Part shown: positions 6,375 to 63,508 of the stretch, one piece after another
Layout of the letters: each line of letters begins with the position of its first letter
Numbering within the stretch: the stretch's first letter is position 1
Source of the DNA: Brassica napus
Lineage: Eukaryota > Streptophyta > Magnoliopsida > Brassicales > Brassicaceae
Assembly (NCBI RefSeq): GCF_020379485.1
Contig: NC_063438.1
Span: forward strand, 3,968,001-4,032,000
Length of the DNA stretch: 64,000 nucleotides
Direction of reading: 5' to 3'
The notes under the pieces: model-generated
The model's input: the letters and a program-made list of their open reading frames with translations, nothing else
Databases searched by the model: none
What the model was told of the DNA's origin: nothing
Program-made: the position numbers and the translations under genes

Positions 6375-8377
6375 ATTGATGACGCCGAACCTATATGCTT
6401 ACGGCTTACGGAACTTGATTTGACAAATTGGCCTTTTTAACGCATAACTGAAACAATTAGATTATTTATTAGACTATGTTTTAAACACGTACGTTATATG
6501 GAACCATAAAACTAAATTCTGAAAGCCAAATTTTAAAAATTCAAATTTCTAAGCCATATCTTCTAATAATTTATTTTTAATGGTAAGAATCTCAGCAAAA
6601 TAGCGTATTTCTAAAAATATTTGAATATTTAACCTATTAAAACGAGTTCGATCATTTTCAAAAAAAAAATTATTATTAATCATAAATCAGTCTCCGCAAG
6701 TTGGTAACAGAAAACAAAAGATCCTGCAAAATGAAAATATTACTATTTTGTATTCTGTGAATGTTTTTTTTTTTTTTGACAAAGACATTCAGTGAATTAG
6801 TAAACACATGGTAACCGCTGAAATGTACATCTCCACAAAACATTTCGTTCAAAACTCATTTCCACTGATATTTAACCAAGTGTTTTTTTTTTTCTAATTC
6901 TGGAAAAAAAAAACCAGTGTTTATGTTTACATCATCTTTTTTTTTTATATCAAAGATATATAGCTCAACAACTCATATTTCCCCTCACAGTTTCAGTTTA
7001 TGTTACCACACATATTATCAAAAACCTATTGAAAAAGAGAGGCTAAAATTATAATGAATCTTTTTTCCGAATTTCACATATCTAAAAATAAAACGAGTAA
7101 ACGCACGTTCGTACTCCCAACTCATTTTCCTCACGACAGTATAAAGCAGTGTAATGTTTAGTAGTACATGACATCAGTTGTTTCGTAATAGATTTTCTAT
7201 CGTGTTCCGTATTGTAAACGTTATTATCATAATTTGTGTGTTTGGTATAGTACCAAAAAAGTCAAGTAATGCAGTGGTAAATTGGATGGGTGTCAATCGT
7301 TCATGAGATTGATCACCTACGGTCTACAACGATACTATAATTTGTTGTCAATTAAAACTTACAAACTTCAAATGAATATATTCCAAAGATAGGACACCTA
7401 AGTAGTTGTCTTACCTTTTCTTAACGTGTTGCTACAAGTCTCAAAACCATATCACAACATTGTATAATATACTATGTATCGAGATGGAGGGGGTCATATT
7501 TGTATGGGACACGTGATCTGTGCATGCAGTTGCAGTGGAGCTGCGGGTTTGTTTGTACCAATGAAATTAGTTGTTTAGATTATGCGTTGCTTTAGTATTG
7601 TAACCAATACGTCTAAATTTTAATTGCTTGCTGTTTGGCGTGAGCTAACTCACTTAGACCGATGAGCATCAAGGGATGTATCATTATATTTTCTCTATTA
7701 AATAAAGATTGAGGTCATAGACTTTGTTTTCTTTGTCAAAAGTTTGTTTACTACGCACCGAGTTTAAATCTGAATGGACGAATAATTACAGAACTGAAGA
7801 CATTAGTGTGTACAAACGGTTATTGAATACATATACTCTATCAACAGCGTGTGTACAAAATGTTAATAGCATTACATGTATTGTTAGTGTGCCATATTAT
7901 TTTGGTTAATGTTTTTTTGTTGTCGACTTCTAATATCCGTACATTATATTATTTTGTTAGGTAAGTTGGTTGCTACGTGTACATGAGCCTATTTTGCAAT
8001 GGTGTTAGTATCGTTATTTAGCACAGGTAAAGTATGAATTAAGCTGAAATTTTCCAAATCTACCCGCAAGATATGAAAATCTTTTATCGTCAACATTTGG
8101 ATATGAATACATGTGAAAACATCTTAAATATCAAATTTTATGACATTGGAACTATGAAAGATATGGAAGGACACCAAACTAATTGGTTTAGTGACTAAAT
8201 CTTTTTGATCACCTAGTAGATATCTAAAAGATTATGAATTCGATTTCCATTAGAGAAAATATGATAACTATAAATTGGGCTATATACCCTCTCTTTGTTC
8301 ACTTACTTGTCACGCCATCTTCTTCGATTCTTTTAAATTCAATTTGTTATCTCATACCTGCCAAACTCTTCCCGACA
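6375..8377. other. AT-rich intergenic region, no gene seen
   Basis: In Arabidopsis two peroxidase genes and a WEB-family gene lie in this interval as I recall it. I find no trace of them here. A tiny poly(T)-GACAAA insertion sits at about 6763-6785. No open frame shows coding character. Confidence 0.5.
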
Positions 8378-8841
8378 ATGGCTTCCACGTCACGACCAAT
8401 CCTCCCAATCTCCACCTCTCAAACTACTCCTACTTCAAAGTGAACTACCTCGCCGTCGCGACGGCGATCGTCGGGTTCTCTTTGGTGACTCATCCTTTCC
8501 CCCTCGCCTTCCTCCTCTGTCTCCTCGCTTCTTGGCTCTTCTTCTACCTCCTCCGTCCTTCCGATCACCCCGTCGTCGTCTTTGGGCGTACGTTCTCTGA
8601 TATGGAGACGCTTGGGTGCTTGATCTTGTTTAGCGTCTTTGTGGTGTTTCTTACTGACGTTGGATCCGTTCTTGTGTCGGCTGTGATGGTCGGCGTCGCG
8701 TTGGTATGTGCTCACGGCGCGTTTAGGGCTCCGGAAGATTTGTTCTTGGATGAGCAAGAGACGGCAGCTACTGGTTTTCTCTCTTTCCTCGGTAACGCCT
8801 CCTACTCCGCCGCGCCTGCCGTCGTTGCCGCTCGTGCCTAA
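8378..8841 (+). pseudogene. PRA1.B4: PRA1-family protein with internal deletion
   Basis: PRA1 proteins are four-helix membrane proteins that bind prenylated Rab GTPases in the ER/Golgi. The true start appears to be 8378 (MASTSRPILPISTSQT), but that frame stops at 8443. From about 8423 another frame gives the conserved core without a break to 8841: NYSYFKVNYLAVATAIVGFS, two hydrophobic pairs, RTFSDMETLGCL, AHGAFRAPEDLFLDEQE, and the C-terminus SAAPAVVAARA. The roughly 80 residues that precede NYSYFKVNYL in Arabidopsis At2g38360 are missing, and the join shifts frame. An in-frame upstream ATG at 8275 could drive a 188-residue protein with an unrelated N-terminus, so residual function cannot be excluded. 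Confidence 0.75.
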
Positions 8842-10184
8842 GTATATAATCTTGTTTTTATTTCTTATCTTTGCATGTAAGTATATGTTTTACAACTTTT
8901 GTCTAATCTTTAGCTTCTTCAACCTTTACGATCTATAACAGTCTAATTGTGTTGGAAGAGTTGGATCTGTTTTCAAGATTTGAGCTTTGTTTCTCTTGGA
9001 TCTTGTTGAAATAGTAGTCGACCTTTTGTATGGGGATATCCAAAGTTATAAGTTTTTGAACCTCCCCATCATAGAAGCAAATACAATAGGTGATAATGAA
9101 GGTTCTCTAAGATGTTTCGTTGGTAACTGAGTGAAATGAGCTAAGACATGAAAACAGCAGCGTAGGATTTAAATTTTACAAGAAATGATAATTCAAAGAG
9201 AACAATGTGTTTGCCTTATTGGGTGTTTCGTCTAGGTTCTAATAAGGGACTTCTGAATTTGGCTGCTGCGATCAGTCTGAAGATAATGCTTACTTTCCAA
9301 TGGGATAACTACTTTTCACATATTGTTTTTTTGCCAAGGCAATAAACTACGGTTTGAAATGGGAAGACTCCAATTAATGTCAAACCTTGAGGTAACATTG
9401 GACAGAAAAATAATCTAACTTCTCAACATATCTTTGATCTTGTCGTACCATGAAAACAGAATAAGAAAAAAAAACGATATCTTTAACTGCCAACAACATC
9501 GTTTTCTTATATAGTCACTTTAATTTCATCACTTATAATATATTTTCTATAATATATGATCTATGTATAAAGTTTATGAGTTTGGGAAGAGACCAACTTT
9601 CTTTAATAAGTGGGAAAATGTCGAATGGTAACTTGCGCCACAAGCCTGAACTTTTAAAAGGAATGTTTAGTTTGAAGTGTGAATGGCTACGAAAAAGATT
9701 TATACTATTAGGTGACAATCCACCTTAGTTGATATTTAGAGTTTTGGCTTAGGGTACAAGCCACCAATTTGACATCTTCCATAACACAAAAGTTAATAAA
9801 TTATGAAAAAGTCTTTTTTTTTTGTCAAAACAAGTCTTAATCGCAAAGAAATCAAATAACATATAATATCCCAAGTTAATTTTTTTTTACTAGAAAATAA
9901 CGAGCTCGGGAAGAAAGTTTCCTCCAAAAGCAAACACGTCTATCAGTTAAAAATGGAAGATGACAAAATGGTAGCTTGCACAGTAAGCCAAAACCCTAAG
10001 AAGGAAGTTATCAATTGTGAATTGTTCCCCAAAATTTTATAATATATAGTTTTTTTCCAGAAAGAACACGAACAATTCAAAGTCTTAATCGCAAAGAAAT
10101 CGAATCTATATAAACTGGTAAAGGAATATAAAAAGCAAACAAATAAAATAAAATAAAAACCTTATAAAGAGCACACAGAAATCT
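8842..10184. other. Intergenic region between PRA1.B4 and DREB19
   Basis: AT-rich. It contains a short direct repeat (AGTCTTAATCGCAAAGAAATC at about 9833 and 10081) and a micro-insertion at about 9815. No gene recognised. Confidence 0.5.
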
Positions 10185-12626: not shown

Positions 12627-12720
12627 TAACAACTTTTAATTAGCTCGTATAAGTGGGGGGACCATAAAAGATGCTCATATATTTATAATCCATTAACAAA
12701 CTTAAATTTGGAAGTATACT

Positions 12721-12737
12721 TTTTTTTTTGTCAACAA
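12721..12737 (-). mobile_element. 17-bp poly(A)-tailed micro-insertion
   Basis: Read on the minus strand it is TTGTTGACAAAAAAAAA. It is flanked by perfect 14-bp direct repeats TTTGGAAGTATACT (12707-12720 and 12738-12751). That is a retroposition signature with almost no body. Confidence 0.75.
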
Positions 12738-12934
12738 TTTGGAAGTATACTAATCTGCAATATCCCAAAGAATGCATTTTTACGAAATACACTATCTTCA
12801 AAGAATGAGTGTTATTTAGCAGAGTTGGATTTAATAGGCCTAAGAATTATAAAGTACACGAGTAAGCCAGGAAACTGAAACCAGCCTTTTACATCGTATA
12901 TTGGGCAAATGTGCAGAGCGTTTCGTTATAATAA

Positions 12935-13040: not shown

Positions 13041-13044
13041 CATT

Positions 13045-14412
13045 ATTTACTTCTCGAATACCTGATTATGCACGACTGCACGTTAGTATACAGAAACACT
13101 AATGCGATATGGCAAAGATCATATTACATAATGTTTTGTTTTTGAAAGCATATACATAATGTTTCAAAAAAATATCATATTACATAACAACAGTATAATC
13201 ACTAGACCACGTTGAGAACAAATAATCACATTATATGCCATGGAAAATGATTCTGCTATAGTATAAGCTATATACTGTATACATAAGCATCGAGTCTTTT
13301 TCTTTATTTGTCTATAAGAAAATGATTTTGCTACATGCATGTATTCTCCTTTTTGTTAGTTTCAAATAGGATAGGAGGTGAACCTAAGTTCTGTCCTTTC
13401 AAATATATCGTCTACCTCCACGAAATAGTGATAGTATTTTCGGGAGTCAGCCTTCTAAAGTTATCAGTGTTACATTCAAAATAGTATAAAACGAGCTTAT
13501 ACTAAGTGGTACTTTTAGTGGGCACTAGTAGTTATCTATATATAAGGTCCATTTTTTGTTTGTTAAAATATCTGTAAGGTCCATTAGGATACACTTTCCC
13601 TAGTATGTACAATATACTCATAGAGAGCAACTCTTTAACTCAGGATCACAAATATATGACCACAAAATATATAAAAGGTTCTGCTAAACTTAAATTGGAA
13701 GAGAAGCAAACACATAATGCAAATTAGAAACTAAAATTTACAGATTACCAGTGTTCTCTTTTTTTCTTAAATATTATCTAATTTTAATTCAATAAAGATA
13801 CATATATAGTAAGGAAAGGAGTGTAAGCGTGGATGAAGAACCATCAAGGTCCAAGAAGATAATATACGCTTAAATATAATGAAAAGGCTGAAAATGAAAC
13901 CTATGAGAAGAAAAAAAACGTTACTGTATATAAATATATATATGCATGTTGGCCCACGTGGTTCATGCAGCAGAGCATATCTGTTCCCCACCTAGCCTGG
14001 CCCCAGCCAGAGGCACTACAAAGTAAGTAATTCCTAACAAATCTAAAAGCGAAGGAGAAAATAATTTGCTAATGATATTGCAACTTTGGCGAGTAAATGT
14101 ACGAATACATCTACGTCACTGACTGGGGTTTCGCACTTTCTCAAAATAACTGGTTCTGAAAGTTTTGCCCGGCATTAATCAATCATGCTTTACCAAAACG
14201 CCAATAACAACACTAATTGTAATTAACAAGATACAGATACCTGTCGGTGGCTGACTTCACCGGAGAAAGAGACTAATTTTCTTTGATCAAAGAGAAAAAG
14301 GAAGAAATCAAGAAAAAGGTGGTGATATTAAAAGTGCTAAAGTGAAACTCTAAACAAAATTGATATTGATTTTTGAAGTTGTTGATGTATCTGTGAAAGC
14401 CTTTTTCACTGC
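13045..14412. other. Intergenic region downstream of MIR390A
   Basis: AT-rich with one micro-insertion (13553-13574, flanked by TAAGGTCCAT). The part from about 14000 to 14412 may be transcribed as the 3' portion of the primary MIR390A transcript. Confidence 0.4.
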
Positions 14413-14639: not shown

Positions 14640-16130
14640 AGTTTAAGGAATTCAAAGGAACACACGTCATCTTCTCTTCGTTGAGCATGAAATAATTCAA
14701 TTGCATATTTTAACAGCAGTGTTTTGGAAGTATTCCTTTTTTTCTGTAACAATTTCTACTTCTAAAATTATTTATTTAAATTTTTAGCTTTTTTGGTGGG
14801 AAAATTATTGCTTTACTTATACTATATAGTCCAGATGTGATTTATTGGATCCCATATAGTAGTTTGTTTGACTTTCATTATTTTCCTCAGGTCCTGATTT
14901 ACAGAAATGAAGGAGGCTAAATTCAAATACATTATAAATGCTTTTGTTGACGAATCAATTTTGGATGCATATATTCTAATACACTATGATATCGTAGTAT
15001 CCTGGACTTTAAGTATATGATTAGATATCAACATTAGTATGTATATATAATTATATATTAGTATTACAGTAGTTTAATGAAATTTTCAGGGACTCAAAGA
15101 TTTGTGTATATCAATGGAAAACTGAAGGTCTAAAAAACCTAGAAACCTATTGAAAGTTATATTAACTTGCTGTTGCTTTTTATTCTTCATAACCATATTT
15201 CTCTAAAGGCCGGTGAAGCTAGTCAACCATCTATTGGGGGTCAAAATTGTTTTAAGATTCTAAGAAGCCAATATTTAGTGTAAAAACTTCTAAAGCTATA
15301 TTGGTAATTGTCCTTGTATGCATGTTTAAGGTCATGAGTTCAAATCAATGTATATAATTATTACCAAAAAAAATTATATAATTTATATGTTTGAGAGCCT
15401 AAAATATTCAGGCACGGCCAGTCCTGTTTGTCTACCACAAATCGTTGATTCGAGATTCAATATATGTAACAATTTATACATCTACAATAGAGATGTATAA
15501 ATATTTAGTGTTAATGATTTTGTTAACAATTCATATAATTAAATGAATGTTAATGATTTTGTTTTGTTTTTTCATTTTACAACATTTGATTTTTTTCGAC
15601 ATTAGACTCAGAAATTCGTACATAATTAATCTGAATATTTTAGGATCAGGTGAGGGCGTCCCCTTTTTGGAGCAACGTCCATATGTTCTAAGTAGCAGGA
15701 GAACTCCCAAATATAAGAAGAATAAAATACAAAAATACACACAAGAATAATCAATAGATATATGTACAGAAATCTTTTTTTTGGGGTGAAAGTACAGAAA
15801 TCTTTTATTGGCTGAGTTTACAAATATTCAATCAGACATAATTCAGTTTCATTTGGCTAAGCTTTTCTTTAGGTCTTTATCATAGACAACAGCTCTCAAT
15901 CAAATAGCCGCTTATATTAATGCTAAAAAGATTTTGGGAAGCACATAAATAAATGAAGAAGAAAGATAGCTGATAATTAGTTGGAGTGTTATTTTGCTAT
16001 ACATGAATTATGTAGTCTCTACACAGTTGTGCACTTGTTCTCTTGTGGTGTCACGACATTGAATTTATGAATACAGCTATGAGCTATCTTAATTATGGAT
16101 ATATATTTATTTTTTTTGATCGAAAAATAT
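14640..16130. other. Intergenic region with transposon remnants
   Basis: A hAT-like end at about 15387-15425 (minus strand reads GGACTGGCCGTGCCTGAATA) resembles the left end of the element at 60714. A micro-insertion at 15779-15791 is flanked by GTACAGAAATCTTTT. The short open frames at 15531-15750 overlap on both strands and show no family signature. Confidence 0.4.
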
Positions 16131-23290: not shown

Positions 23291-26200
23291 ACCAATTGGA
23301 AAAATAAAAAGTTACATACCGATAAAACATGGAAAAAGCATTTTACTTGTTAAAAAGCCGCGCAAGATGTAAAGCAAAAAGTAAATATTGTAGGGACTAA
23401 AGCATTTTACATGATATTGTCGAACATATATAATTGTAGGGATAAGCTAAAAAGTAAATAGAATTTTATGAGAGTGCATTATTCACCCACTTAAAATTTG
23501 AGAGAATGAAAGACTGTTAGAATGCAAAAACCTTCAAAAAATGAGAGGATAAGAACCTGTTAGAGATGCTCTAAATTCAAAAAAAAAAAGCCAATGTTGC
23601 TGGAGAAAAACTTCTAATGCACAAAAGAAAAGATTATTACAGGAAATTGGCCTACCTATTTTGTATCTCGAAGAAACTCAAACATAATATATCTACCATA
23701 AGGCTTTGAATGTTACAAACCGTCTTGTTGCACTGCACCGCAATTAATAATAACAAAAATCTTTACATATATCATATATCTATACGTTTTTATAACTGTA
23801 AGAACCGCACCGAAATTGAACCGCTTGTCCCGCACCGTTCAATCCGCAATTACCATCCAGAGCCTAAATCGCTTCGTCTGTAAGTTTTTTTGTCTAACGA
23901 AAACATCAACAACTTTAACAGTCTCTTTAAAGACATTCTTACTACCAATAAAATGGTAAATTTCATGCCAAATTAAAAAAAAAATATATAGTAGAAATTG
24001 ATAGCATATACTTACATATCATCATCGTAGGTGCCTTTGTCCAAATTCGACAAGTAAGATTATGATGCATATGATAGATTAGTTAGCTTTAGGTTTAGAT
24101 TCAGACCAATTTGCTTGAAATAGTTTGTTCAAACTTTCTAGCTCAGCTCCCATTGTTGATTCTCTGAATGTGCTATTATCAACCAGTGAAACTTGTATAT
24201 AATTAAAGATTTGAGTGAGGTATATTTCCCATTTATTATGTGTCAAGTGTCATATATGATGCTGAAACTGTGAAACACCAAAAGAAATGGCATATTGCCG
24301 TGTGCATTGAATTGTTATTACGCATTAGTTGAATTTGCGACCATATACAGACTGGGCTCAAGTTGGATATAGAGGCGGATGCCCTTGGCGCTTGGGTTTT
24401 GATTTTGCCACCAAATTCAACTACAGACCACAGTCATGCTCAAGGTGGTTAGGTCGTCATAGATTTTGGCATAACTATGGGTAGGACCTAGCATCCCCTA
24501 TCTTGTAATGCAGTTTCTTTGTTTTTGTTATTTTCTCGATTACTTTTATCAAACCACAAGGTCGAACCGTGATCTAATACTACTTGTCATTTATATGAAA
24601 AGACTAGGTTCTACCGTGTGGAATATGTTAATCAATGCATAACAATGAATAATTTAAAAATAAATTAAAGGTCTTACTTCTGTTTGGTATTTATAAAAAA
24701 TCACTTCAAAAATATATATGGTAGGAGTTGAGATTAACAGAGTAGATTAATCTAAAGTATTTTCCACGGAAAAAAAAATTAATTTTCCACGAATAATCTT
24801 TGATTATTGGGTTTAAGATCTTTTACATTGCCTAGGACATTCTCTTCTAGATAATGTTTAAAATCAATATAATAAGGGAATTAAGTACAAATGATAAACC
24901 TACCTTAACCTGACCCAAAATGTGTGTCAAAGGCCGTACGTCCATATTAAGTCTCGATTTAAAAACATCATCCGATCGTATAAGAAGACGGTGGAAAGTA
25001 CTAATCTTTTTGCAACTTGTTAATATATTAATTTTTTTGTATTCGATTTCTTTTTGTTAGTTTTCTTCTCTTGAACAAGCGGGAACTTGAGCAATTGGTC
25101 CAATCAAGGTAGAAGAAACGGTGGCGTGAAGGATCTCGAAACACACATCTATTTTATTTTTCTGAATCAGAAGAAAAAGAGAATTTAATTTGCAAATCAC
25201 AGTTAATATGTTTGCAAAATGTTGCAGCTACCCCTGTCCCACTTGCACTGCCAACTCGTTCGCAACGATTTTCTTTATTTTTACACCTTTCATGGCCATA
25301 TTAAGTATGTATCTTATGATTAGTAAGCTTGCTATAATTGTCAATATTTGACGTTCACAATAAATAGTAATTGAAAGTACGAATTACGAAACCTTATTTT
25401 CTTAACGTTTTGATTTCTTTGGTTCTTAAAAAAAAACAAACTGGATAGCTATTCTGAAATTAATTTAAAGTTCTTACCACCATGATGCCCAGAATACATA
25501 AAGATTTGGATAATTTGAAACTTTTGTGAAGTAAAGCAAAGAAGTTGGATGAAAGGTTTTGATCGCTTGAAGCATTATCCCTGAACTCGATTAAGCACTA
25601 AACTTGATTTCGTTGTTTCGCTATGTCGTATTCATTTTGGTGTTTGTTTATGATATTTAGTTATTTACGATATGGACAAGAAAATTGTTGTAAGCATAAA
25701 TTAATATCAAAATCTAAACTAATCCCAAAAACTTTATATATCCAATATTTTTATCACATAAAAGATCAACATGGTTTTAGAATTCAACTTTTCCTATCCC
25801 ATGATAAATTTCCAGTGCTATACTACCATGGTTACATAATTGTGGGAAACGTGGATTATAGTTCTTTTTATGTTTGAACATGGCTTTTGGATTACATTTA
25901 TTGCAAGCATAAAAATATTTTTTTTGACAAAAACAAGGATAAAAAATATAACAACTAGAATCTTTAAAAATTATGTGGATAAAAATGTATGATTTAATGC
26001 TTTAAAACCACTTGAGTATACAAAAAAAAAATCTGTTTAAATGTTGGTATATTCTTTAAGAGGTCACTTGGAACCCAAACGAAACATATCGCGACTCTCG
26101 TTATGTAAAAGGACATGCAACTTGTTGCCAAAAAAAAAAGGACGTGCAACTTGTTATCTTCTCTAATCTATATATTGTTTTATTATTATTAAAATTAATC

Positions 26201-27039
26201 TTATATTTATCAATTGGAAAGAAGCATAAAGAAAGGAGGTGAAGATCAACAAGTTGCAACTTGCATTCCTTTTTTATTGTCCAGAATAAACAGCTTGGCT
26301 TGTTGTGTTACCACTTGCGATTTTTTTTTATTTCATTTTATGTCAGTAACATGTTCATATCTATGCTATATATCAAATGCGTATATGTGTGGATAGATTT
26401 GTTCATTTTAATTTTACCCTTCAATCTTCCATTATAAAAAAACATCAGCCATTTCCACTTAAATTTATTTTCTAACAAGCAATTTTTGATTTTGAAGAAA
26501 TTTAACTTTTCTTGTTTGCAAAAGAAATTTAACTATTTGTTGCACACGTTGTTTGTTTTTAATTTAAAAAACTTAAATATCAATCCTTTTTTAATTATCG
26601 TGGAATCATAAGAAATATAAAAGTTGTAGGAACGATTTAAAATCCTCGAGGAAAGGAAGACTTTATATATCATGCCTAGGTTTAAAGTTTTCTTTGTTGA
26701 CAAAAAAAAAGGTTTAAAGTTTTCTTTAGTCATCGAATTTTCTCAAAAGATGTTTATACATACATAAGTTTGACAAATGTTATGAGCTATATATCCGAGT
26801 CGACTACGCATTGTAATCTTCAGTATATACTTACTGAATGGGGTGGTGAAAGTCCGAATAGGTTCTTTACGGATATAAAGTACAAAACTAAGTAAATGAT
26901 AATAAGATTATGATGCATATGATAGATTAATTTACTAATGTATTTTTTTCACACAATAAGCCGGCAAAAACATAGATCACACGACGGCTTAAAAACAACA
27001 AAACGGCGTCGGATCTAACCAAACTACTCGACCAAACCC
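23291..27039. other. Long intergenic stretch upstream of the RRM genes
   Basis: AT-rich, no gene recognised. It holds three micro-insertions with target duplications (26127-26135, 26508-26522, 26696-26710) and a 27-29-base direct repeat containing AAGATTATGATGCATATGAT at 24056 and 26905. The open frame at 25623-25877 has no domain signature. Confidence 0.45.
26696..26710 (+). mobile_element. 15-bp poly(A)-tailed micro-insertion
   Basis: GTTGACAAAAAAAAA lies between perfect 17-bp direct repeats GGTTTAAAGTTTTCTTT (26679-26695 and 26711-26727). Confidence 0.8.
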
Positions 27040-34136: not shown

Positions 34137-34438
34137 TTACTTGGGAAAGAAACCTGGGTCCATCTAAATTATTGAAATGGATTGTGTTCATATCTCAATA
34201 TATTCTCATTTGTAAGGTACTAAAATTTAACATAATAAATAGTAAAAAATAAAAGAAAAATGTTTATTGACTACGCGAAGTATCAACCATCACATGGCTA
34301 ACCATATAAACTAAAATAATGTATACATTTACACGAAATATATATTATACATGATTACATCCCTCAACTTAATGTGTTATGTAGTTAATATCACGAGTTT
34401 AATTTTATTTATCCAAAACTTGATGTGGATATCATATG

Positions 34439-34934: not shown

Positions 34935-35164
34935 TAATGTCAGATGTCGTTTAAATCTCCCGCTTTTATCATTTAAAATTTGATGTACCTGACGATAAAT
35001 TTAACTAAATATGAAAGTTATAAAAGATATTATATAATTTTGGTTTTTTAATTATTTTAATATGTTTTGTTATTAACTCTTAATAAAAAATTTGTAATAG
35101 TTTGATTAATTGTGTGATATATACTTATTTGTTCAATTTTTTATTATAAAACTTACTTCATCTC

Positions 35165-36980: not shown

Positions 36981-37126
36981 TTTTTTTTTTGCTAACCGAG
37001 TATTCTGGTCCCATCGTGGTGGTCCAGACTAGAGATCGAAGTGAGCATGGACCCAAATGTCACCAGGTGGCTCACCGTAAATGGTCTTCGGTTTCGGATG
37101 TTGCAGTTCATATGTAAATTTCACAG
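36981..37126 (-). mobile_element. 146-bp poly(A)-tailed retroelement, unit A only
   Basis: Flanked by perfect 10-bp repeats TGCATAACAT (36971-36980 and 37127-37136). On the minus strand it ends CTCGGTTAGCAAAAAAAAAA. Unit B has the uninterrupted empty site at about 48543-48552. It is a SINE or a 5'-truncated LINE inserted after the segmental duplication. Confidence 0.88.
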
Positions 37127-37567
37127 TGCATAACATATTTTAGTCAACTGAATTAAATTTAGGGTTACGGTTTTAGTGATAACTTATTTATATGAACATA
37201 ACAGTACCTTATATTACAATATTAATATTTAAAAGAATTATAATTACTGGAAGTTTGCGTGATACATCCTAATTAAGTTATTTTGAAGTTACAAGGAATT
37301 ATTGTGAGAAAGTATATGTTATCCGCGCCTTGCCTTTAATGTCATAACTATATAATTAAAAAACTGATAAGAGTTGACCAAAAACAGAAGAGAAAAAACA
37401 AATTTAATAAGATAATTCAAATGTGAGTTTGTACATCATATTTCTGGTCAGAGATAAAAGAAAAAGGTGAATTAATATGGCAGTCAATGAATTGATTAGT
37501 TGTTGACTCCGATTGATTATATATATACCGATCCATATCGATTGAGAAATAGAAGTAGAACTTAACC

Positions 37568-39315
37568 ATGGATACACGTCAAATGATCGTTATATTTTCT
37601 TCTTTGGTTCTCACGCAAATGACCCTAGGAAACATTGATGTTAGATTTTACGACTTCTACTTTGTTTTCCATTTCTTAGTATTTGATTTTATAAGAATTT
37701 TTATTTGCATCAATTTTACAGGAGTTTGATTGTGTTGATATATACAAACAACCCGCTTTTCAACATCCATTGTTGAAACACCACAAGATTCCGGTATGAT
37801 AGTGACCTTGATTTAATCTTTTTTTAACACTACCTTGATTTAATCAAATATGAAATAAATTAGTGTAGACAATTTAGAAATATTTTGACCTATATTTTTC
37901 TCTTAATTTATCTTGTTAACTTTTTTTGCTATGTTTCAGGAAAAATTCACTTCAAATGAAAGTTTTGATAGAAAAAGTAAATATAAAACAACTGATCAAA
38001 GTTGTCCAAAAGGAACCGTGGCAATCTTAAGACAAAGAAGTGAAACTGAGAGTCTTCATCTCGACACAGACGATCATTTCGGCCACCATGTATATCCTTC
38101 TTTTTCTGCCTGTTTTATAGTTTATATTCATCCCTTATTAAAAAATAATAATATTTAGTGTGTTATGAAACATGCAAGACGTGACTTCTATATGTGATAT
38201 ATAATATATTATTGTACAGTTTGCGGTAATGGACACATATCCGGATGCGAGCATCTATCGAGGAGCACAAGCTGATATAAGTATCCATAACCTAACTTTA
38301 CAAAATAATCAATTAAGTAGAAGTCAAATTTGGTTAGAGAATGGACCTCCTGGAGAACTCAACAGCATACAAGTTGGCTGGGCGGTACGTCTTTATAAAC
38401 CTCATACATAATACACATGTAATGGAATCAATACGGCACACATCTCATCACATAGTTTACGTAGGTGCATCCAAGATTGTACGGAGACAGTGCCACACGA
38501 TTTACTATTTATTGGACTGTGAGTAAACTAATACTTTTTCTTAATTATGCTTGTAGATATATAACCATACTTTTTTTCTTTTTTACATAATAATATTGTT
38601 AATATATTGTATGAATTTGTCTTTCATTTATCAGGCTGATGGCTATAAAACCACTGGATGCTATAATACAAATTGTCCTGGTTTTATTATTGTAACTCGA
38701 AATCCCTCGATTGGAAACATTTTTAAACTATCCTCCGTGTATGGTGGTGATAAAACAGTTATTTTCACACCACACGTTTATCAGGTAAACATTTATTTAC
38801 AATATTCTATATGCATGTTATTTAACATTAGTTTTGGGAATGGGGAGTATATATTATATAGTTTCTATCAAATATTTCTTAACAAGGCCAGTTTTCAAAA
38901 AAAAAGAAGAAAATTCTTAACTGTTTTCTTCTTTGCTTCAATATTTATGTAGGACGTCTTTACTCCAGGCTGGGCACTGAAAGTAGATGACGAAATGATT
39001 GGATATTGGCCCGGAGAGCTATTTACACACTTGAAAAATGGAGCTTCTCGGGTGCGTTTTGGAGGAAACACATATATATCTCCAGATGGGATTAGTCCTC
39101 CAATGGGAAATGGTCATTTTCCGCTTAAAGACTATCAAAGGAGTTCGAGTTTTCTTCATGTGAAGCTTACGAATCATAGGTATCAGACAATCGAAGCTAA
39201 AACAATATTAAGGAATGCAGATTCTAGGTGTTTTAGACTAATGGACCGGCGTTACACCAAGGAGAACGGAAAGTCCTTTTCTTATGGAGGAGCAGGTGGC
39301 AGATGCGGTATTTGA
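37568..39315 (+). CDS. DUF239/neprosin-domain secreted protein, copy 1
   Basis: Seven exons: 37568-37639, 37722-37793, 37940-38089, 38220-38384, 38465-38518, 38635-38784 and 38953-39315, giving 341 residues. The signal peptide (MDTRQMIVIFSSLVLTQMTLG) leads into a short DUF4409 part (EFDCVDIYKQPAFQHPLLKH; SCPKGTVAILRQ) and the DUF239 domain (RGAQADISIHNLTLQNNQ; SQIWLENG; IQVGWAVHPRLYGDSATRF; YKTTGCYNTNCPGFIIV; MIGYWPGELFTHL; VRFGGN). The end is GGAGGRCGI. The family relates to neprosin, a prolyl glutamic endopeptidase, but the EVGW-type glutamate is Q and the WWLE-type position is K, so activity is doubtful. Copies 1 and 3 are a recent pair. Confidence 0.85.
37819..37832 (-). mobile_element. 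14-bp micro-insertion in DUF239 intron 2
   Basis: TTTTTTTAACACTA between 13-bp repeats CCTTGATTTAATC. Present in copies 1 and 3 (near 49227), absent from copies 2, 4 and 5. It therefore predates the A/B duplication and postdates the gene duplication. Confidence 0.75.
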
Positions 39316-41339: not shown

Positions 41340-44262
41340 AACAAACATGAGAATATTGAAGTTACAGATATAATTGCACTTAAAAGAAGAAGAAGCATCA
41401 CAAATGAAACATAAATAACAAAAAAAAGAAATGGACAAAACAATCTTATTTAGTTTTCCCTTTGTCTAGAAAATAATCTGCACTAACTGTATATTAAGTA
41501 TTAACGTTATGCAGTCATCAAATCAGAATCAAAAAAAAAAAAAAAACAAAGTATAAAGTTTAAATTTACAATTTTATGTTGCTGCTCCTTTGTATTGTTC
41601 ACATTTCCTATCAAAACTTCTTGATTACAAAAGAACCAAGCTTAAGTTTCCCATTGGAATGTTCCGGTACAGATATGAAACGACACTGAAGCATAATAAT
41701 ATTTTTGGTGTCAAAGGAAATGATATTTAGAAACTGATTTTTTTAAAAAAAATTGGTCAAGAATGACATTGGCTTTTGCAGAATGTAAAACCATATAAAA
41801 CTTAAACACGAAAATGTAGATTTATGACTATATTCCTCTCTGGGAAATTAAATAAAATATAAAACTACACGAAAAATATATAAACAAAACAACCAAACAT
41901 TAAAAATCAATAAATTAACAAAATGGTCAAAACTGAAAATTTAAAATCCAAAAATATAAATTAGTCTTCTATCAATTTTATGTATTTAAAAGAACAATTT
42001 TAAGCTATAGTATTCAAAAGTTAAAGCTATAACTATTTAAAAGTTGAGGCTACAAAATATTGAAAATGTTCACACGAAATTTATAACCATCAATCATAAT
42101 ATGCAAAATCCCTATTTTAATTTATTAATTTTATAAATGTCAAGAAATCCTGAAATGATTAGAAATGGAAATAAATATAAAAAACGTAAACTAACAAAAA
42201 AATTTTTTTGCTATCCATACAAAATATTTGGAACTCCTACATAAAAATAACTAAAATATTTTTGTCTTTTAAATCCAGTTTTCAAAGAATTAATTAAAAA
42301 TATATTAAAAATAAAAAATGAAGTTGAGGGTATATGACATGAGAAATTTCACACATAACTTAAAAATAAAATTATGCCAAATCAGCATTTGATTTTATTA
42401 AATTTTCCAAAAATATTTATTTCAAAATAAATAAAAAAGTACTATCAAACAAGGTAAACTAAAAAAAAGAAATTAATATAAAATAAGAAAGAATAACAAA
42501 CTAGAAATCTTTAAAAGAAATTAAATTGATTTATATACTAAATATTTGGAAAAGGAACATAAAATATGTCTTAAAATGCAAGATTTTATATAATGCAAGA
42601 CTTTGAAAGAATATCACTATATGGACTTAAATTATCTAACAATCAACTTTACATGTTTGCTAACTCATTGCAAATTAACATTAAAATAGTTTAACAAAAC
42701 ATAAATAGTATGTCCATAAATTTTCTTATATGATAGGTGATACAAGAATCACATCTTTAAAAAATCAATAAAAATATTAAATTATCAAAATTAAAAATTA
42801 AAATATATAAAAAATAGAAAGTAATTAATGTCTTCAGAAATGTAAAATCTAAAGAATCATATTTATACAATTAAAATACAAATAAAAATAAGAAACTAAG
42901 CTAACAAAGGAAACATATATCCTTCTAAAACTTTAACTTAACTCTTTGGAAATTTAATATCAAACATAAATTCTTTGAAAAAATGTATCCTACAGTATGT
43001 CTAAATATACAAATTATATATATCAAAATAAAATAATTAATTAATATCGAAATAGCTAACCTAATAACAAATTAAAAGAAAATTGCAAGACTCACAATAG
43101 TCACTACAATTATTTAGTGATGACATTCAACCATCTTAATGCTCCAACTATGTTTCAGAGTTTGATGGACTCGGTATTTAAACTTTATATGCGTCACTTT
43201 GATGCATAACTCATCACCATAAACATGTGAACCATCTAAAATGCGACTTTGAAATGATGAGACAGAATGTTTGTATGCTAAGAGAAGTAAGTATCCTTTT
43301 GCTACGGAGAGTGTAGAGTATTGAGGGCATTATGTTTATTCTGAGGAGTATCCACATACTCAATGAAAGTTAAAGCAATTGCTTAATGGCATATATAATT
43401 ATATTATTCTCAAGGACTACATGGATTTGATATCATATTTCTCTGAAAATTCAACACAAAAATGTTTAACTAACAAAAAAAAAAGGAACATACATTATGT
43501 CTTATAAAACTGTAAAAAGTTCCAAAGATTTTGACAACCTAAAAGCCATAATTCTTGACAAACTTATTTGTAATAGTTAGGGATAGAAAATGTCCACTTA
43601 GGGATAGTTACCTGGTTTTTAAATAAATATGAAAAGTTGAAAGATATATAATAACTAAAAGATTGATGTTCAGTCGTATAAAATGTCAAAGCATTCTTAT
43701 TAAATTATAATTTTACGCAAATATAATATTTCTAAAACGTGTTGGAAAATTTAGTATTTTTATAAATTAGTTATTAGTTAAGAAAATATCTCACATTTCC
43801 AGTAACTTCTATAAGAAATCATGTTTGAAAATGCTATCTCTTTTCAAACTCTAAAATACTATTTTAGCATTGTTTTCACAATTATCATACTGAGAGATAC
43901 ATTTAGAAAAGGAAGTAAAATGATGACTTCGTAATTCAAAACATATTATGAAAATATAAATACAATATTTGATGAAGTGTAAGCTCTGACAAACATAATT
44001 CAATCACAATTTTTTTTTTTGCTAAACTTTCCACCACAATTTTCAAAATTTGTGCTTTGCATAATGCCGAATGCAAAATCAGGTTAGGTTCTTAAAATTT
44101 ATGTATTTGATTGTCATTCAGTCAAACAATAAAATGATAAAGACCAGTAGAAAAACAGAAAGCATAGTTAAAGTTAGAAAAAGTATAATTCAAAAACATA
44201 ATTTTTTATTTATTTAAATAATTATTTATTATATATATATATATAACAAAGGTATATAGGTC
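41340..44262. repeat. 2.9-kb non-coding block of unit A
   Basis: Very AT-rich; no open frame or element with clear ends. It aligns closely with 53735-56636, with small indels only. It includes a poly(T)-GCTAAAC micro-insertion near 44012 shared by both units. Its last 40 bases hold a TATA-rich stretch that may be the promoter of the CC-NLR fragment. Confidence 0.75.
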
Positions 44263-48987: not shown

Positions 48988-50730
48988 ATGGATACACGTC
49001 AAATGATCGTTATATTTTCTTCTTTGGTTCTCACGCAAATGACCCTAGGAAACATTGATGTTAGATTTTACGACTTCTACTTTGTTTTCCATTTCTTAGT
49101 ATTTGATTTTATAAGAATTTTTATTTGCATCAATTTTACAGGAGTTTGATTGTGTTGATATATACAAACAACCCGCTTTTCAACATCCATTGTTGAAACA
49201 CCACAAGATTCCGGTATGACAGTGACCTTGATTTAATCTTTTTTTTAACACTACCTTGATTTAATCAAATAAGAAATCAATTAGTGTAGACAATTTAGAA
49301 ATATTTTGACCTATATTTTTCTCTAAATTAATCTTGTTACCTTCTGTTATGTTTCAGGAAAAATTCATTTCAAATAAAAGTTTTGATAGAAAAAGTAAAT
49401 ATAAAACAACTGATCAAAGTTGTCCAAAAGGAACCGTGGCAATCTTAAGACAAAGAAGTGAAACTGAGAGTCTTCATCTCGACACAGACGATCATTTCGG
49501 CCACCATGTATATCCTTCTTTTTCTGCCTGTTTTATAGTTTATATTCATCCCTTATTTAAAAAAAAAATATTTAGTGTGTTATGAAACATGCAAGACGTG
49601 ACTTCTATATGTGATATATAATATATTATTGTACAGTTTGCGGTAATGGACACATATCCGGATGCGAGCATCTATCAAGGAGCACAAGCTGATATAAGTA
49701 TCCATAACCTAACTTTACAAAATAATCAATTAAGTAGAAGTCAAATTTGGTTAGAGAATGGACCTCCTGGAGAACTCAACAGCATACAAGTTGGCTGGGC
49801 GGTACGTCTTTATAAACCTCATACATAATACACATGTAATGGAATCAATACGGCACACATCTCATCACATAGTTTACGTAGGTGCATCCAAGATTGTATG
49901 GAGACAGTGCCACACGATTTACTATTTATTGGACTGTGAGTAAACTAATACTTTTTCTTAATTATGCTTGTAGATAACCATACTTTTTTTCTTTTTTACA
50001 TAATAATATTGTTAATATATTGTATGAATTTGCCTTTCATTTATCAGGCTGATGGCTATAAAACCACTGGATGCTATAATACAAATTGTCCTGGTTTTAT
50101 TATTGTAACTCGAAAACCCTCGATTGGAAGCATTTTTAAACTATCCTCCGTGTATGGTGGTGATAAAACAGTTATTTTCACACCACACGTTTATCAGGTA
50201 AACATTTATTTACAATATTCTATATGCATGTTATTTAACATTAGTTTTGGGAATGGGGAGTATATATTATATAGTTTCTATCAAATATTTCTTAACAAGG
50301 CCAGTTTTCAAAAAAAAAAAGAAGAAAATTCTTAACTGTTTTCTTCTTTGCTTCAATATTTATGTAGGACGTCTTTACTCCATGCTGGGCACTGAAAGTA
50401 GATGACGAAATGATTGGATATTGGCCCGGAGAGCTATTTACACACTTGAAAAATGGAGCTTCTCGGGTGCGTTTTGGAGGAAACACATATATATCTCCAG
50501 ATGGGATTAGTCCTCCAATGGGAAATGGTCATTTTCCGCTTAAAGACTATCAAAGGAGTTCGAGTTTTCTTCATGTGAAGCTTACGAATCATAGGTATCA
50601 GACAATCGAAGCTAAAACAATATTAAGGAATGCAGATTCTAGGTGTTTTAGACTAATGGACCGGCGTTACACCAAGGAGAACGGAAAGTCCTTTTCTTAT
50701 GGAGGAGCAGGTGGCAGATGCGGTATTTGA
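48988..50730 (+). CDS. DUF239/neprosin-domain secreted protein, copy 3
   Basis: Seven exons: 48988-49059, 49142-49213, 49358-49507, 49637-49801, 49882-49935, 50048-50197 and 50368-50730, giving 341 residues, nearly identical to copy 1. Visible changes are T-to-I and E-to-K in exon 3, R-to-Q in YRGAQ, N-to-K and N-to-S in exon 6, and G-to-C in the exon 7 stretch TPGWALKVDD. All splice sites and the stop are intact. The same two presumed catalytic glutamates are replaced (Q and K). Probably a secreted, catalytically altered neprosin-like protein of unknown role. Confidence 0.85.
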
Positions 50731-57634: not shown

Positions 57635-58820
57635 TATATTTAATAATAACTAAGTTAGTTGGAGGAGAAATAATAGGAAATTAAATTAATGTATTAGTCC
57701 AACCTAGATTATTTGCAAGTAGATAAAACGTTATTATATCTTAATAGTATTGATGATTATATGTCCATATTTCTTTTACAATCCTTTTGAAGCAGATCAA
57801 TATTGACTTTATTATTATTATTGATATTTTTTTTATCACGAAAATGCCTTTATTATTGATATTGATTGATGACAATAACCAAATGCTTTTATTATTGATT
57901 GATAAAATATAATTAAAAAAAAGGAATAAGAAAACAAATAAAGAGTGCATTGATAATATGCTCCAAATCTCAAATTTTGGTTTCCACGTTTTAGATTTTG
58001 GATTCCAAAGAAAATTACTTTTCGCACATCAATCTGGATTCCCAAAATCTTCTACTTCATGATGTAACTTGTTATTTTTCATCCATACCAAAAAACTTAG
58101 ATTTATCTTAGATCATCAAAGAGATTGACAAAATGTTCTCCGGTCTGAAAAATAATTTTTTTATTGTGGATCCCTGAAACATATTTGAAACCATAATAAG
58201 ATTTTGAAGATAGTATAATTAAAGTAGACTATAAAAAAATATGTAAAAGTCACGTACATGAACACATATGAAATATGTTTTTTATGCTCTGAAGATGTCT
58301 CATTATGTCATGTGCCTAACTCCTTCCGAAAATAATATGATGAATTGGTTAAAAGAATTCAATGCGGTGTTGAAACGTGAATTTTCCTTTTCATGAGTGA
58401 ACTTTCCTTTTCATGAGTTGGCCATGTGTATTGCAATGACTTCATAAAACAGGGTGCATGAACCACTTTGGCAATTTTTAATTGTTTTGTCTCTCTGGAT
58501 AGGTTTTATTTTCGTGAGATTCGTGAGACATGCGATGTTCGTGAGATTTGTGAGACATGCGCTTATATAAGATGTAATAACAAGTTGATATTAGGGTTGT
58601 TTTGGTACGATGGTTTATTAATAGATTTAAATGGTTCAATTATATAATAATGTCACCAATTTATAGTTAGAGTAAAAACCGGATACATATATAAGGTGAA
58701 ATATTTGTCACGGGCTGTTATAATATACAAGGAAAGATCAAAAAAAATAATAAAAAGAAAGGGTGCAGTAACATTTCATAGATAGATTTTTTTGGACTAT
58801 TTTTCTTTTATTAGTATAGA
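57635..58820. other. Spacer ending in a Helitron 5' terminus
   Basis: No gene. It holds a micro-insertion (57829-57850, flanked by TATTATTGATATT) and a 27-bp tandem repeat at 58511-58563 (TTCGTGAGATTCGTGAGACA and onward). The last bases, read on the minus strand, are TCTATACTAATAAAAG, a Helitron 5' end, directly followed by T at 58821. Confidence 0.5.
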
Positions 58821-59454: not shown

Positions 59455-61613
59455 ATGGATACACGTCAAATGCTGGTTATATTTTCTTATGTGGTTCTCA
59501 CGCATATGACCCTAGGAAACATTGATGTTAGAGTTTACGACTTCTACTTTGTTTTCCATTTCTTAGCACTTGATCTTTTAAGATTTTTTTTTTTGTATTC
59601 ATCAATTTTACAGGAGTTCGATTGTGTTGATATATACAAACAACCCGCTTTTCAACATCCATTGTTGAAACACCACAAGATTCCGGTATGATAGTGACAT
59701 TGCTTTAATAAAATATGAAATAAATTGGACAAGTTAGAAATATTTGACCTATATTTTTCTTTAAATTAATCTTGTTATCTTCTGTTATGTTTCAGGAAAA
59801 ATTCACTTCAAATGAAAGTTTTGATAGAAAAAATAAATATAAAACAAATGATCAAATTTGTCCAAAAGGAACCGTGGCAATTTTAAGACAAAGAAGTGAA
59901 ACTGAGAGCGTTCATCTCGACACAATCTATCAATTCGGCCACCATGTATATCCTTCTTTTCCTGTTTTATAGTATATATTTATCCCTTTTTTTTTAAAAT
60001 GAGTATATATTCATTCCTTATAAAAAAAATAATTCAAATTATTCAGTGTGTTATGAAACTTGCAAGACGTGACGTTTATACATTCTTGTACAGTTTGCGT
60101 TGATGGATGCATCTTCGTTTGAAACCATCTATCGAGGAGCACAAGCTGATATAAGTATTCATAACTTAACTTTACAAAATAACCAATACAGTAAAAGTCA
60201 AATTTGGTTAGAGAATGGACCTATTGCCGAACTCAACAGCATACAAGTTGGCTGGGCGGTACGTCTTTATAAACTTTATACATAATACACATGCAGTGGA
60301 ACCAAGACGGCACATCCCATCCCATATTTTGCGTAGGTACATCCAAGAGTGTATGGAGACAGTGCTACACGATTGACTATATATTGGACTGTGAGTAAAC
60401 TAGTACTTTTCTTAGTTATGTTTGTATCTAACCATACTTTTTATTCTACATAATACTAATACGGATAATATATTGTATCAATCTGTCTTTCATTTATTAG
60501 GGAGATGGCTATAAAACTGGATGCTATAATACAGAATGTCCTGGATTTATTATTATTACTCGAAAACCCTCGATTGGAAGCATTTTTAAACAATCCTCTG
60601 TGTATGGTGACAAACCAGTAACTTTCACACCACAAGTTATTCAGGTAAACATTTATTGACAATCTTCTATATGCATCTTATTTGACATTAGTTTTGGGAA
60701 TGGGAGTATACAGACTGTGCCGTGCCTAGAGTATTAGGAGCCTAAGGCAAATTTGTCCAATTTTTTATTATAGATAATAATACAAATTCTAATACTAGTC
60801 TAACAATAATTTTTAATACAAAATCTAAATAAAAGTTGGTATTTTGTTATTTTAGATTTTGAAGTTATTTTATAAAAGGAAAATTATAGAAAGTACCAGT
60901 GAAAATATAATACTTTTGATGGGAAAAAAAAATATAATTTTTAAACTGACAAAAAAAAAAATTCAACGTACAAAAAAAAGAAAAAACTTGTGTCTATGAC
61001 AATAAGTGAAACCAGAGGAAAAGGTTTGAATTATTTAGAAGAAAACATAGGTTTTCTTTTCCAGTAAGCCACTAATTACATTATCATTTTGCTAATGACT
61101 ACAAATATGGGGCCCCTAAATTTCCTAAACCAAGTGGGGCCTGAGGCTAATACCTCAAAACTTATACCATTGGCACGCCTATGTATACAGTGTATGTAGT
61201 TTCTACCAAGTATTTCTTAACTGTTTTTCTTTTTGCTTCAATATTTTATGTAGAGCTTTTTTGGAAACTGGGTACTGTACGTAGACGACGAAATAATTGG
61301 ATATTGGCCCGGAGAGCTATTTACACACTTGAACAAAGGAGCTTCTCGGGTGCGTTTTGGAGGAAACACATTTATGTCTCCAGATGGGATTAGTCCTCCA
61401 ATGGGAAATGGTTATGTTCCGATCTATGACTATGAAAGGAGTTCGAGTTTTCTTCAAGTGAAACTTATGAATGATAAGTATCAGAGCATCGAAGCTGAAA
61501 CACAAATGGGGGTTGCAGATTCTAAGTGTTTTACACTAATAAGTCGGGATTACACCAATGAGACTGGAAATTCCTTTTCTTTTGGAGGACCAGGTGGAAG
61601 TTGTGGTGTTTGA
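59455..61613 (+). CDS. DUF239/neprosin-domain secreted protein, copy 5
   Basis: Seven exons: 59455-59526, 59614-59685, 59796-59945, 60094-60258, 60337-60390, 60501-60644 and 61254-61613, giving 338 residues with no break. The signal peptide is MDTRQMLVIFSYVVLTHMTL. Later motifs are DCVDIYKQPAFQHPLLKHHK, CPKGTVAILRQRSETES, YRGAQADISIHNLTLQNNQ, GYKTGCYNTECPGFIII, IIGYWPGELFTHL and the end GGPGGSCGV. It is closer to copies 2 and 4 than to 1 and 3. Intron 6 is enlarged by a 469-bp hAT-like insertion. Presumed catalytic positions read Q (IQVGW) and Y (NWVLYVDDE). Confidence 0.83.
60714..61182. mobile_element. hAT-like element in intron 6 of copy 5
   Basis: Flanked by 8-bp direct repeats GTATACAG (60706-60713 and 61183-61190). 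Ends ACTGTGCCGTGCC and, inverted, ATAGGCGTGCC. Copy 4 has the empty site at 53214-53221. No coding. Confidence 0.75.
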
Positions 61614-61880: not shown

Positions 61881-62722
61881 CTAGATGTTTGGTCCGCTAG
61901 TGTTGGGTTAATCGTTTTACATTATATTTTTATTAATTTAGAAACTAGCATGATAATTAATTATTTATGTTTTTAAAAAAATAAATCAAACATCAATATA
62001 TATATATATATATTTATTATTGTGTTGAAATTTTACATTCAAATATTAGAAATATTTTAGGAGATATCTTTATACAAAATGTTTTGTTGATTAATATTTA
62101 ATTATAAATTGTTTATATGTTATTTTCTAACTTTTATAATTGAAAACAAAATTACTTTAAGAGAACAACACAATATATCAGAATTATCTTATTTAAAAAT
62201 TCTAAAATTATTAATAAAAATTCTAAGATAACAACACAATATATAAGAATTATCTTATTAAAAAAATTCTTATATTATTAATAAAAATTTGTTTTTAATC
62301 ATATAATTAATTATATATAAACTCATTAAGGGTAATATTGACTTTAACCACTTAATTATTTTAAATTGTTTTTATATCTTATTTTTAACTTTTATAATTG
62401 AAAAATATGCTTTAAGATAACAACACAATATATAAGAATTATTTTATTTTTAATAAAAATTAATATTATTAATAAAATCGTATATGATTAAATAATTAAT
62501 TATATATAAAATTCATTAAGGGTATCATCGTGTTTGATCACTCTAACTTTCAACGTGAGAGTTGTTGTTAAAATTTACTTAGCAAATAATAGTATAGATT
62601 CGTTTTTGATTATATAATAAATTATATATTAAATTCGTTAAGGATAGTATAGATATTGACCGCTCTAACTTTCAACGTGAGAACTCCGTTGTTAAAATTT
62701 ACTTCGCAAATAATAGTATAAA
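61881..62722 (-). mobile_element. Helitron with duplicated 5' terminus, 842 bp
   Basis: On the minus strand it starts TTTATACTATTATTTGCGAA and ends GGACCAAACATCTAG, placed exactly between host A and T. Unit B shows the empty sequence near 53898. A second 5' terminus (TCTATACTATTATTTGCTAA) ends at about 62599, inside the element. Confidence 0.8.
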
Positions 62723-63508
62723 TTAAGTATTAACCTTATGCAATCATCAAATCAGAATAAAAAAACAAAGTATAAAGTATATATTTACAATTTTATGTTT
62801 CTGCTCCTTTGGTTAGTTCACATTTCCTATCAAAACTTCTTGATTATAAAAGAACCAAGCTTTAGTTTCCTATTGGAATGTTCCGGTTCGGATATGAAAC
62901 GACATTGAAGCATAAAAGTATTTTGGTGTCAAAGGAAACTGTTTTTTTTTTGTTCACTAGGAAACTGATTTTTAAAACATTGGTCAATACAAAACAAACA
63001 TGAGAAAACTGAAGTTAAACATACACTTGCACATTAAATATATATAAGAAGAATGGTATTTAGCAAAAAAAGAAAATATATAAGAGGACAGACAAATAAG
63101 AAGCATCATAAAGAAGAACATCACAAAGTGAAACACCTTTAAGAAGAACAAGACATAACAATAATTTTTCTTTTTCATTTCTCCCTTTGTCCAGAAAACA
63201 CTATGCACTATATATATATATCTATATATATATTAATCTTATCCGGTCAACAAACCAGAATCAATCACAAAACCACAAAATATAAAGTTTTTATTTACAA
63301 TCTATGTCGCTGCTCCTTTGGTTTGTTCCCAGTATATAGTTCCCTTCTATCAAAACTTCTTGATTACAAAAGAACCAAGCTTTAGTTTTCCATTGGAGTG
63401 TTCAGAATGGGTATGAAACGGCTTTATAAGCATAGTGTATCTGTTGTTTCAGAGGGAAGAAGCTCTTGCCGTAGTTCAGGAGATAAATAAGATTGCACAT
63501 TAGTTTGT
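62723..63508. other. Intergenic region before the ETO1-like gene
   Basis: Aligns with the 3' flanks of the DUF239 copies up to about 62960, then contains material similar to 50880-51060. Two micro-insertions: 62942-62958 (flanked by AGGAAACTG) and 63050-63075 (flanked by ATATATAAGA). Confidence 0.5.

Follow-up and report, generated by a model that had tools for sequence, protein, structure and literature searches.

What placed the very short, A-tailed inserts that lie between direct repeats in this stretch of plant DNA? In the 64-kb window (the whole stretch analyzed here), about eight such inserts hold little beyond a poly(A) tail between two copies of a target site, and this density of roughly one per 8 kb stands out as a notable feature. 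We propose that the inserts are very probably scars of target-primed reverse transcription (TPRT) left by L1-type LINE machinery. An endonuclease would nick the target, mostly between a pyrimidine and A; a poly(A) RNA would prime at the nick; reverse transcription would halt after the tail and 3 to 17 further bases; and staggered second-strand cleavage with fill-in would duplicate 11 to 20 bp of the target. The enzyme, the RNA template, and the early stop are the parts of this scheme that we infer.

Insert structure and empty sites

The strong inserts have bodies of 3 to 17 nt and carry four to nine A's outside the repeats. At the seven independent strong loci, the direct repeats measure 11 to 20 bp, in keeping with the variable target duplication of TPRT (about 4 to 20 bp). 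The inserts are as follows.

12705..12751, minus strand: micro-insert GTTGAC-A9 (12721-12735) between 16-bp exact direct repeats
13543..13585, minus strand: micro-insert at 13554-13574 whose A-rich tail is interrupted, flanked by exact 11-bp direct repeats
15764..15806, minus strand: micro-insert TTTCACCCC-A4 (15779-15791; 8 A including shared ones), flanked by exact 15-bp direct repeats
26107..26155, plus strand: micro-insert GCC-A6 (26127-26135), flanked by 20-bp direct repeats that differ at 1 position
26678..26727, plus strand: micro-insert GTTGAC-A8 (26696-26709) between 18-bp exact direct repeats
37805..37845, minus strand: micro-insert AGTGTT-A7 (37819-37831) between 14-bp exact direct repeats
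49225..49266, minus strand: paralog of the insert at 37805, with an A8 tail (49239)
57815..57863, minus strand: micro-insert AGGCATTTTCGTGAT-A6 (57829-57849) between 14-bp exact direct repeats, without a paralog
59971..60019, minus strand: micro-insert CATTTT-A7 (59989-60001), flanked by 18-bp repeats that differ at 2 positions

Seven of the ten loci that the preliminary description had offered as examples (12721, 13553, 15779, 26127, 26696, 37819, and 57829) are thus well supported. Of the others, 26508 holds in part, 62942 lacks support, and the paralogs of 63050 contradict it, as detailed below.

The window's duplicated segments do not include the loci to the left of 33 kb. Elsewhere, paralogs within the window display the empty site for two tiny inserts and for one insert of 146 bp. 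The insert at 37805 (13 nt plus the 14-bp duplication) is missing from three paralogs (near 52203, 59697, and 40734), and the site near 52203 is a letter-perfect single copy of the target; the copy of this insert at 49225 was, most simply, inherited by descent. The insert at 59971 has counterparts at about 40993 and, in diverged form, at 52490, with empty copies near 38130 and 49550. The longer insert is the following.

36971..37136, minus strand: 146-bp insert with the 3' end GTTAGC-A10, flanked by direct repeats of 10 bp (TGCATAACAT) and with its empty site at 48544

The observed empty sites hold the target in single copy and lack none of its bases. The 37805 and 59971 inserts divide the paralogs identically (A and C versus B, D, and E), and it is possible that, at both tiny loci, a prior insertion was lost through recombination between the repeats in one paralog group. 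Neither the 59971 insert nor the 146-bp insert had figured in the preliminary description.

Tail types and the template

One piece of a LINE within the window bears on the source of the inserts.

35165..36147, minus strand: LINE piece truncated at its 5' end, with zf-RVT and a weak RNase H-like match; its 3' end reads GGTGAC-A9

The 5' limit given here is that of the open frame rather than a mapped end. A second LINE copy ends at 46807, and no clear target duplication was visible by eye around the piece. With short A-runs as the reference, TAGC precedes A-runs of at least 7 in 5 cases out of 123, where 0.44 would be expected (uncorrected p 0.0001), and TGAC does so in 4 out of 123, where 0.56 would be expected (uncorrected p 0.003). 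Within the window, TAGC is the motif at the 3' end of the 146-bp insert, and TGAC is that of the LINE piece. The inserts had originally been read as products of LINE retroposition with extreme 5' truncation. TPRT-type retroposition is well supported by the tail order, the in-window empty sites, and the A that starts the duplications; a LINE RNA truncated in this way is a plausible source.

It is also quite possible that TPRT acted on SINE RNA or polyadenylated mRNA, making the inserts tail-only SINE or processed-pseudogene insertions; the likelihood of such templates overlaps with that of our preferred explanation, which allows for either kind of template. The bodies GCC, AGTGTT, TTTCACCCC, and AGGCATTTTCGTGAT are diverse, as expected of mRNA 3' ends, and at 3 to 17 nt they are too short for assignment to a source. 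The 146-bp insert holds a 32-codon open stretch for which Pfam gave no match, and two of eight window frames gave none. Against these templates stand the recurrence of the TGAC and TAGC tail types, the match of TGAC to the LINE end, and the identity of all six body bases between the two GTTGAC inserts (A8 and A9), a body that nevertheless differs from the in-window LINE end GGTGAC. A search for LINE relatives in viral contigs returned 118 pattern-matched stretches, none of which was confirmed, and a second search returned no matches.

Order of tail and body and the nick site

The window was scanned for poly(T/A) runs flanked by direct repeats. TPRT predicts an order in which the tail adjoins one repeat and the body lies at the opposite repeat; the mirror order, with tail and body swapped, is a control built into the scan. 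The chance baseline came from 300 runs of simulated sequence, 100 for each of the Markov orders 1, 3, and 5. Across the whole window, 14 matches with a score of at least 9 (about 12 independent) have the poly(A) tail at the downstream copy of the duplication and the body on the other side, as in TPRT, versus none in mirror order; at a score of at least 11 the counts are 8 (7 independent) and 0, and at a score of at least 8 the mirror count is 3. Hence, the earlier figure of at least a dozen loci is reached when weak matches are counted, and seven independent loci remain at the stricter score. The excess that had been anticipated over random sequence is clear, with simulated means of at most 0.48 matches at a score of at least 9 and at most 0.04 at a score of at least 11 for all three Markov orders.

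With bodies of up to 25 nt, the one-sidedness is kept for minimum runs of 6, 7, and 8 (no mirrored matches at scores 9, 11, and 13). For the same bodies and a score of at least 9, a minimum run of 5 gives 15 TPRT-order matches versus 1 mirror match, and a minimum run of 4 gives 28 versus 5. When exact repeats of at least 13 bp were counted with spacers of 6 to 35 and free composition, leaving out tandem and coding arrays, the T's lay at the left or the A's at the right in six of eight independent cases by our own count, the T-rich 26495 being counted in.

The first base of the duplication is A in eight of nine oriented inserts (p of about 0.001). In our own reading, a pyrimidine/purine step lies at the nick in eight of nine, A at position -1 being impossible by construction because the repeats were maximally extended. 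Such a site is of the L1 endonuclease type, in a sample that is small and chosen: the nine exclude the paralog 49239 and the weaker 59987, 62942, 30548, 30563, and 60924.

Repair of double-strand breaks by NHEJ, polymerase theta, or fill-in synthesis, giving short tandem duplications with filler in which the T-runs arose by chance or through later slippage, strikes us as improbable. Break repair does leave small tandem duplications and fillers in which a short insert lies between two flank copies, as here, but a poly(A) tail and a one-sided order are not expected of them. Two tailless cases in the window may be of this origin, namely, GGGCCCC between 9-bp repeats at 51894, which is absent in four paralogs, and, at 15509, a spacer flanked by 16-bp repeats. 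Break repair as a source of short duplications is also a topic of published papers, with mention of insertions in rice. For the tailed class, however, break repair predicts neither a side for the T-run, as against 14 versus 0 at a score of at least 9, nor any tendency of the duplications to start with A, as against eight of nine.

That fitting cases were merely picked from a window rich in T-runs and short repeats, as its composition (68% A+T) and the failure of 62942 and 63050 might suggest, is refuted for the strong set by the empty sites in paralogs and by the absence of any TPRT-order match with a score of at least 12 from 300 simulated runs, versus 7 observed, and chance may account for single weak matches.

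Body lengths

A further scan, with three arrays masked, low-complexity sequence filtered more strictly, and one mismatch allowed, extended to bodies of up to 2,000 nt. At a score of at least 11, it found 8 matches with bodies of up to 25 (0.03 expected), none with bodies of 26 to 200 (about 0.5 expected), and 8 in TPRT order with bodies of 201 to 2,000 (two being paralogs of one site) versus 0 mirrored; the mirror count was 0 at every length up to 2,000. In simulations, bodies of 201 to 2,000 at this score gave a mean of 2.2 to 3.0 and a maximum of 6, with a maximum of 8 in mirror order. Bodies of up to 25 hold most of the excess over chance at this score. For bodies of up to 25, 26 to 200, and 201 to 2,000, respectively, the TPRT and mirror counts were 9 versus 0, 3 versus 2, and 9 versus 9 at a score of at least 10 and 11 versus 0, 4 versus 4, and 28 versus 23 at a score of at least 9. 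The near equality of the two orders at scores 9 and 10, together with the simulated counts, indicates that chance accounts for most of the longer set, of which a few inserts may be real. Unmasked, with bodies of up to 60 or up to 200 nt and minimum runs of 6 to 8, the scan gave 10 to 19 TPRT-order versus 4 to 8 mirror matches at a score of at least 11. Since the mirror count fell to 0 on masking, most of these mirror matches would have lain on the tandem array at 11.9 to 12.4 kb, the mask and the filter having been changed together.

It is conceivable, if somewhat unlikely, that tail-only insertion forms a separate mode that dominates plant retroposition, rather than the short end of a continuous range of lengths. 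In that case, most of the TPRT events here would stop within about 20 nt beyond the tail, followed by clean joining, and the uncounted scars could add to intron length and give rise to poly(A) microsatellites genome-wide.

Relationship to known insertions

Among the tabulated human L1-mediated insertions, four rows (121 to 124 of Table 1) are tail-only “pA” insertions with tails of 35 to 120 A; three of these carry deletions without target duplication, and one has a 6-nt duplication (PMC4859970). The inserts described here resemble these rows in their poly(A), little or no body, and L1-endonuclease-like sites but differ in having 4 to 9 A's outside the repeats and duplications of 11 to 20 bp. 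They are also comparable to the 5'-truncated LINEs and processed pseudogenes of that report in the 3' poly(A), the target duplications (4 to 20 bp there), and the pyrimidine/purine cleavage site, whereas the L1, Alu, SVA, and pseudogene inserts of stated size in rows 58 to 124 of its Table 1 span at least 90 bases, versus bodies of 3 to 17 bases here (PMC4859970). The mechanism is not new, because tail-only insertions are already known from the human cases tabulated there (PMC4859970). Searches for plant reports of tail-only inserts, made with narrow phrases over titles and the starts of abstracts and with partial coverage of the subscription literature, found none.

Tail-only scars look like the smallest traces possible for LINE-type retroposition, and they are readily overlooked. 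If about one scar per 8 kb were typical of the genome, which extrapolates from a single window of 64 kb, plant genes would be touched by LINE enzymes far more often than repeat annotation suggests. Scar number and length spectrum would provide a direct tally of early-stopped reverse transcription, which bears on the 5' truncation of LINEs, and the mirror-order count is a simple internal control that could be used to score any genome.

Weaker and rejected candidates

Two of the previously named examples have repeats but show no empty site in their paralogs.

62933..62967, minus strand: repeat-bounded candidate at 62942, with 9-bp repeats
63040..63085, plus strand: repeat-bounded candidate at 63050, with a 10-bp AT-rich repeat

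The first was rejected as an insert: its paralogs at 41.7k and 54.1k read GGAAATGATATTTAG.AACTG (the dot being A or T) and show no single-copy target, so its repeat may be partly old. The second is probably no insert, as its A-run aligns with A-rich paralog stretches near 41.4k, 53.8k, and 61.8k (about 69 to 70% identity).

Several further loci were graded weak, namely, 30548/30563, 60924, 6752, 26508, and 44010. At 6752, where the range given in the preliminary description starts, an 11-bp repeat with 1 mismatch was seen by eye, and the T-run does not adjoin it; 26508 has a 13-bp exact repeat but a T-rich spacer without an A/T run of 6. The candidate at 44010 is shared with the paralog at 56392, with no empty counterpart in the window.

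44005..44043, minus strand: weaker candidate GTGGAAAGTTTAGC-A7 between 9-bp repeats

Tail and body order

The window is 68% A+T over its 64,000 bases. Of eight frames submitted to Pfam, six have matches (two to neprosin and one each to a Bet v 1-like domain, AP2, aminotransferase, and RRM), a gene content consistent with a plant. We inspected the ten examples listed in the preliminary description, along with the start of its range (6752), at their own coordinates and listed exact direct repeats with spacers of 6 to 40 across the window. Under target-primed reverse transcription (TPRT), the tail abuts one repeat and the body lies at the other; on the plus strand, this predicts a T-run abutting the left repeat with the body to its right or an A-run abutting the right repeat with the body to its left. 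The mirror order constitutes a built-in control, because composition and local repetitiveness are equal. With 129 T-runs and 150 A-runs as input, each six or more long, the scan returned 14 predicted-order matches at a score of at least 9, 11 at a score of at least 10, 8 at a score of at least 11, and 7 at a score of at least 12; the mirror order returned 3 at a score of at least 8 and none at 9 or above. Simulated sequences (Markov orders 1, 3, and 5, 100 each) averaged no more than 0.48 matches at a score of at least 9 and no more than 0.04 at 11 or above, both below the observed counts. Among the 14, 37819 and 49239 are paralogs of one insert and 30548 and 30563 overlap each other, leaving about 12 independent matches, 7 of them reaching a score of 11; hence, the earlier estimate of at least a dozen loci holds at the lower threshold but not at the higher one. 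For bodies of up to 25 nt and a score of at least 9, minimum runs of 6, 7, and 8 gave 14, 12, and 11 matches versus 0 mirrored, while minimum runs of 5 and 4 gave 15 versus 1 and 28 versus 5. The original observation is largely right.

Size classes

A masked scan for body lengths of up to 2000 (score of at least 11) yielded 8 matches (7 independent) with bodies of up to 25, none at 26 to 200, and 8 at 201 to 2000, with no mirror-order match in any bin. Simulation predicted 0.03, about 0.5, and 2.2 to 3.0, respectively; the excess is therefore overwhelming in the tiny class only. A small number of the longer matches may likewise be genuine inserts. At a score of at least 10, the middle bin holds 3 predicted-order versus 2 mirrored matches. 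Middle sizes could also be scarce because longer inserts are selected against where genes are dense. A tandem array at 11947-12437 has T-runs within its units; when left unmasked, it probably raises the count of tailed matches whose spacers are longer.

Empty sites in paralogous segments

The following segments, together with a larger duplicated block (33894-36985/45536-48558), offer a natural set for indel comparison inside the window.

37352-63434, tandem set of five related segments with identities mostly of 80-98%
about 37.4-40.0k, segment A
39.8-44.3k, segment B
48.5-51.4k, segment C
51.4-56.6k, segment D
58.8-63.4k, segment E

Copy A, the sole one of the five submitted to Pfam, encodes neprosin (PF03080). 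The insert at 37805-37845, which lies about 12 bases beyond a GT that by visual reading is a putative 5' splice site, is present in A and C; D has an empty site with the same flanks and one letter-perfect copy of the 14-bp target, and B and E each have one diverged target copy. A second tiny insert (59971-60019 in E) is present in B and E, in diverged form in D, and absent from A and C. As both cases split A and C from B, D, and E, gain in one paralog group and loss in the other are indistinguishable without an outgroup; in either case, the insertion came first at both loci. A 146-bp insert (36971-37136), flanked by 10-bp repeats and ending in GTTAGC-A, is missing at 48544, where the counterpart is 95-98% identical on both sides; a 32-codon open stretch within it has no Pfam match. 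Two listed examples are not upheld by the in-window paralogs: those of 62942 give no clean single-copy counterpart, and the A-run of 63050 occurs in paralogs too.

Target site and template

Nine inserts could be oriented (12720, 13552, 15775, 26130, 26702, 36971, 37819, 44010, and 57827), omitting one paralog and the weaker matches 59987, 62942, 30548, 30563, and 60924. With these weaker matches left out, the duplication begins with A in eight of nine (34% expected; p about 0.001). By visual reading, eight of the nine have a pyrimidine before the nick and a purine after it; by construction, the -1 base can never be A. The same target-site asymmetry is described for human L1-mediated events in PMC4859970. 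The TPRT reading of the micro-inserts is well supported.

The 5'-truncated LINE piece (35165..36147, minus strand, bounded 5' by its open frame) encodes a zf-RVT domain (Pfam E 2.4e-17) and gives a weak RNase H-like match that scores 20.9 bits, under the 21.6 cut-off. Its 3' end is GGTGAC-A9, and GTTGAC followed by A8 or A9 is read exactly in two micro-inserts. With identical hexamers counted once, 123 of 163 A-runs of at least 7 were kept; TAGC precedes 5 (0.44 expected) and TGAC precedes 4 (0.56 expected). No other 4-mer in this test was stronger, uncorrected for the number tried, and both motifs were first flagged in this same sequence by the preliminary description. TAGC ends the 146-bp insert and TGAC the LINE piece, which supports retroposon 3' ends as templates; the 4-mer test does not separate LINE RNA from SINE RNA or mRNA. 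Of the LINE retroposition originally proposed, the TPRT mechanism is well supported, but 4-mer enrichment and GTTGAC do not establish a LINE RNA template over the other two.

Tail-only insertion is already known from human disease loci, accounting for 4 of 67 rows (58-124) of a table numbered to 124 (PMC4859970). We found no plant report in the literature searched, which does not prove absence in print; the density and tiny size class of the micro-inserts merit a whole-genome count.

Neighboring structures

Not all repeat-bounded inserts in the window look retroposed. At 51894-51918, GGGCCCC lies between 9-bp direct repeats (TTGATTATA) with no tail and is missing in four paralogs, and at 15509-15563 a 16-bp exact direct repeat encloses a 23-bp AT-rich spacer, also tail-less. 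Both fit break-repair duplication with filler; the former could be such filler or a DNA-transposon footprint. Inverted-repeat arms surround the LINE piece (34255-34418 with 36727-36561; 35006-35141 with 36323-36189), as if it had inserted midway into a larger inverted-repeat element.
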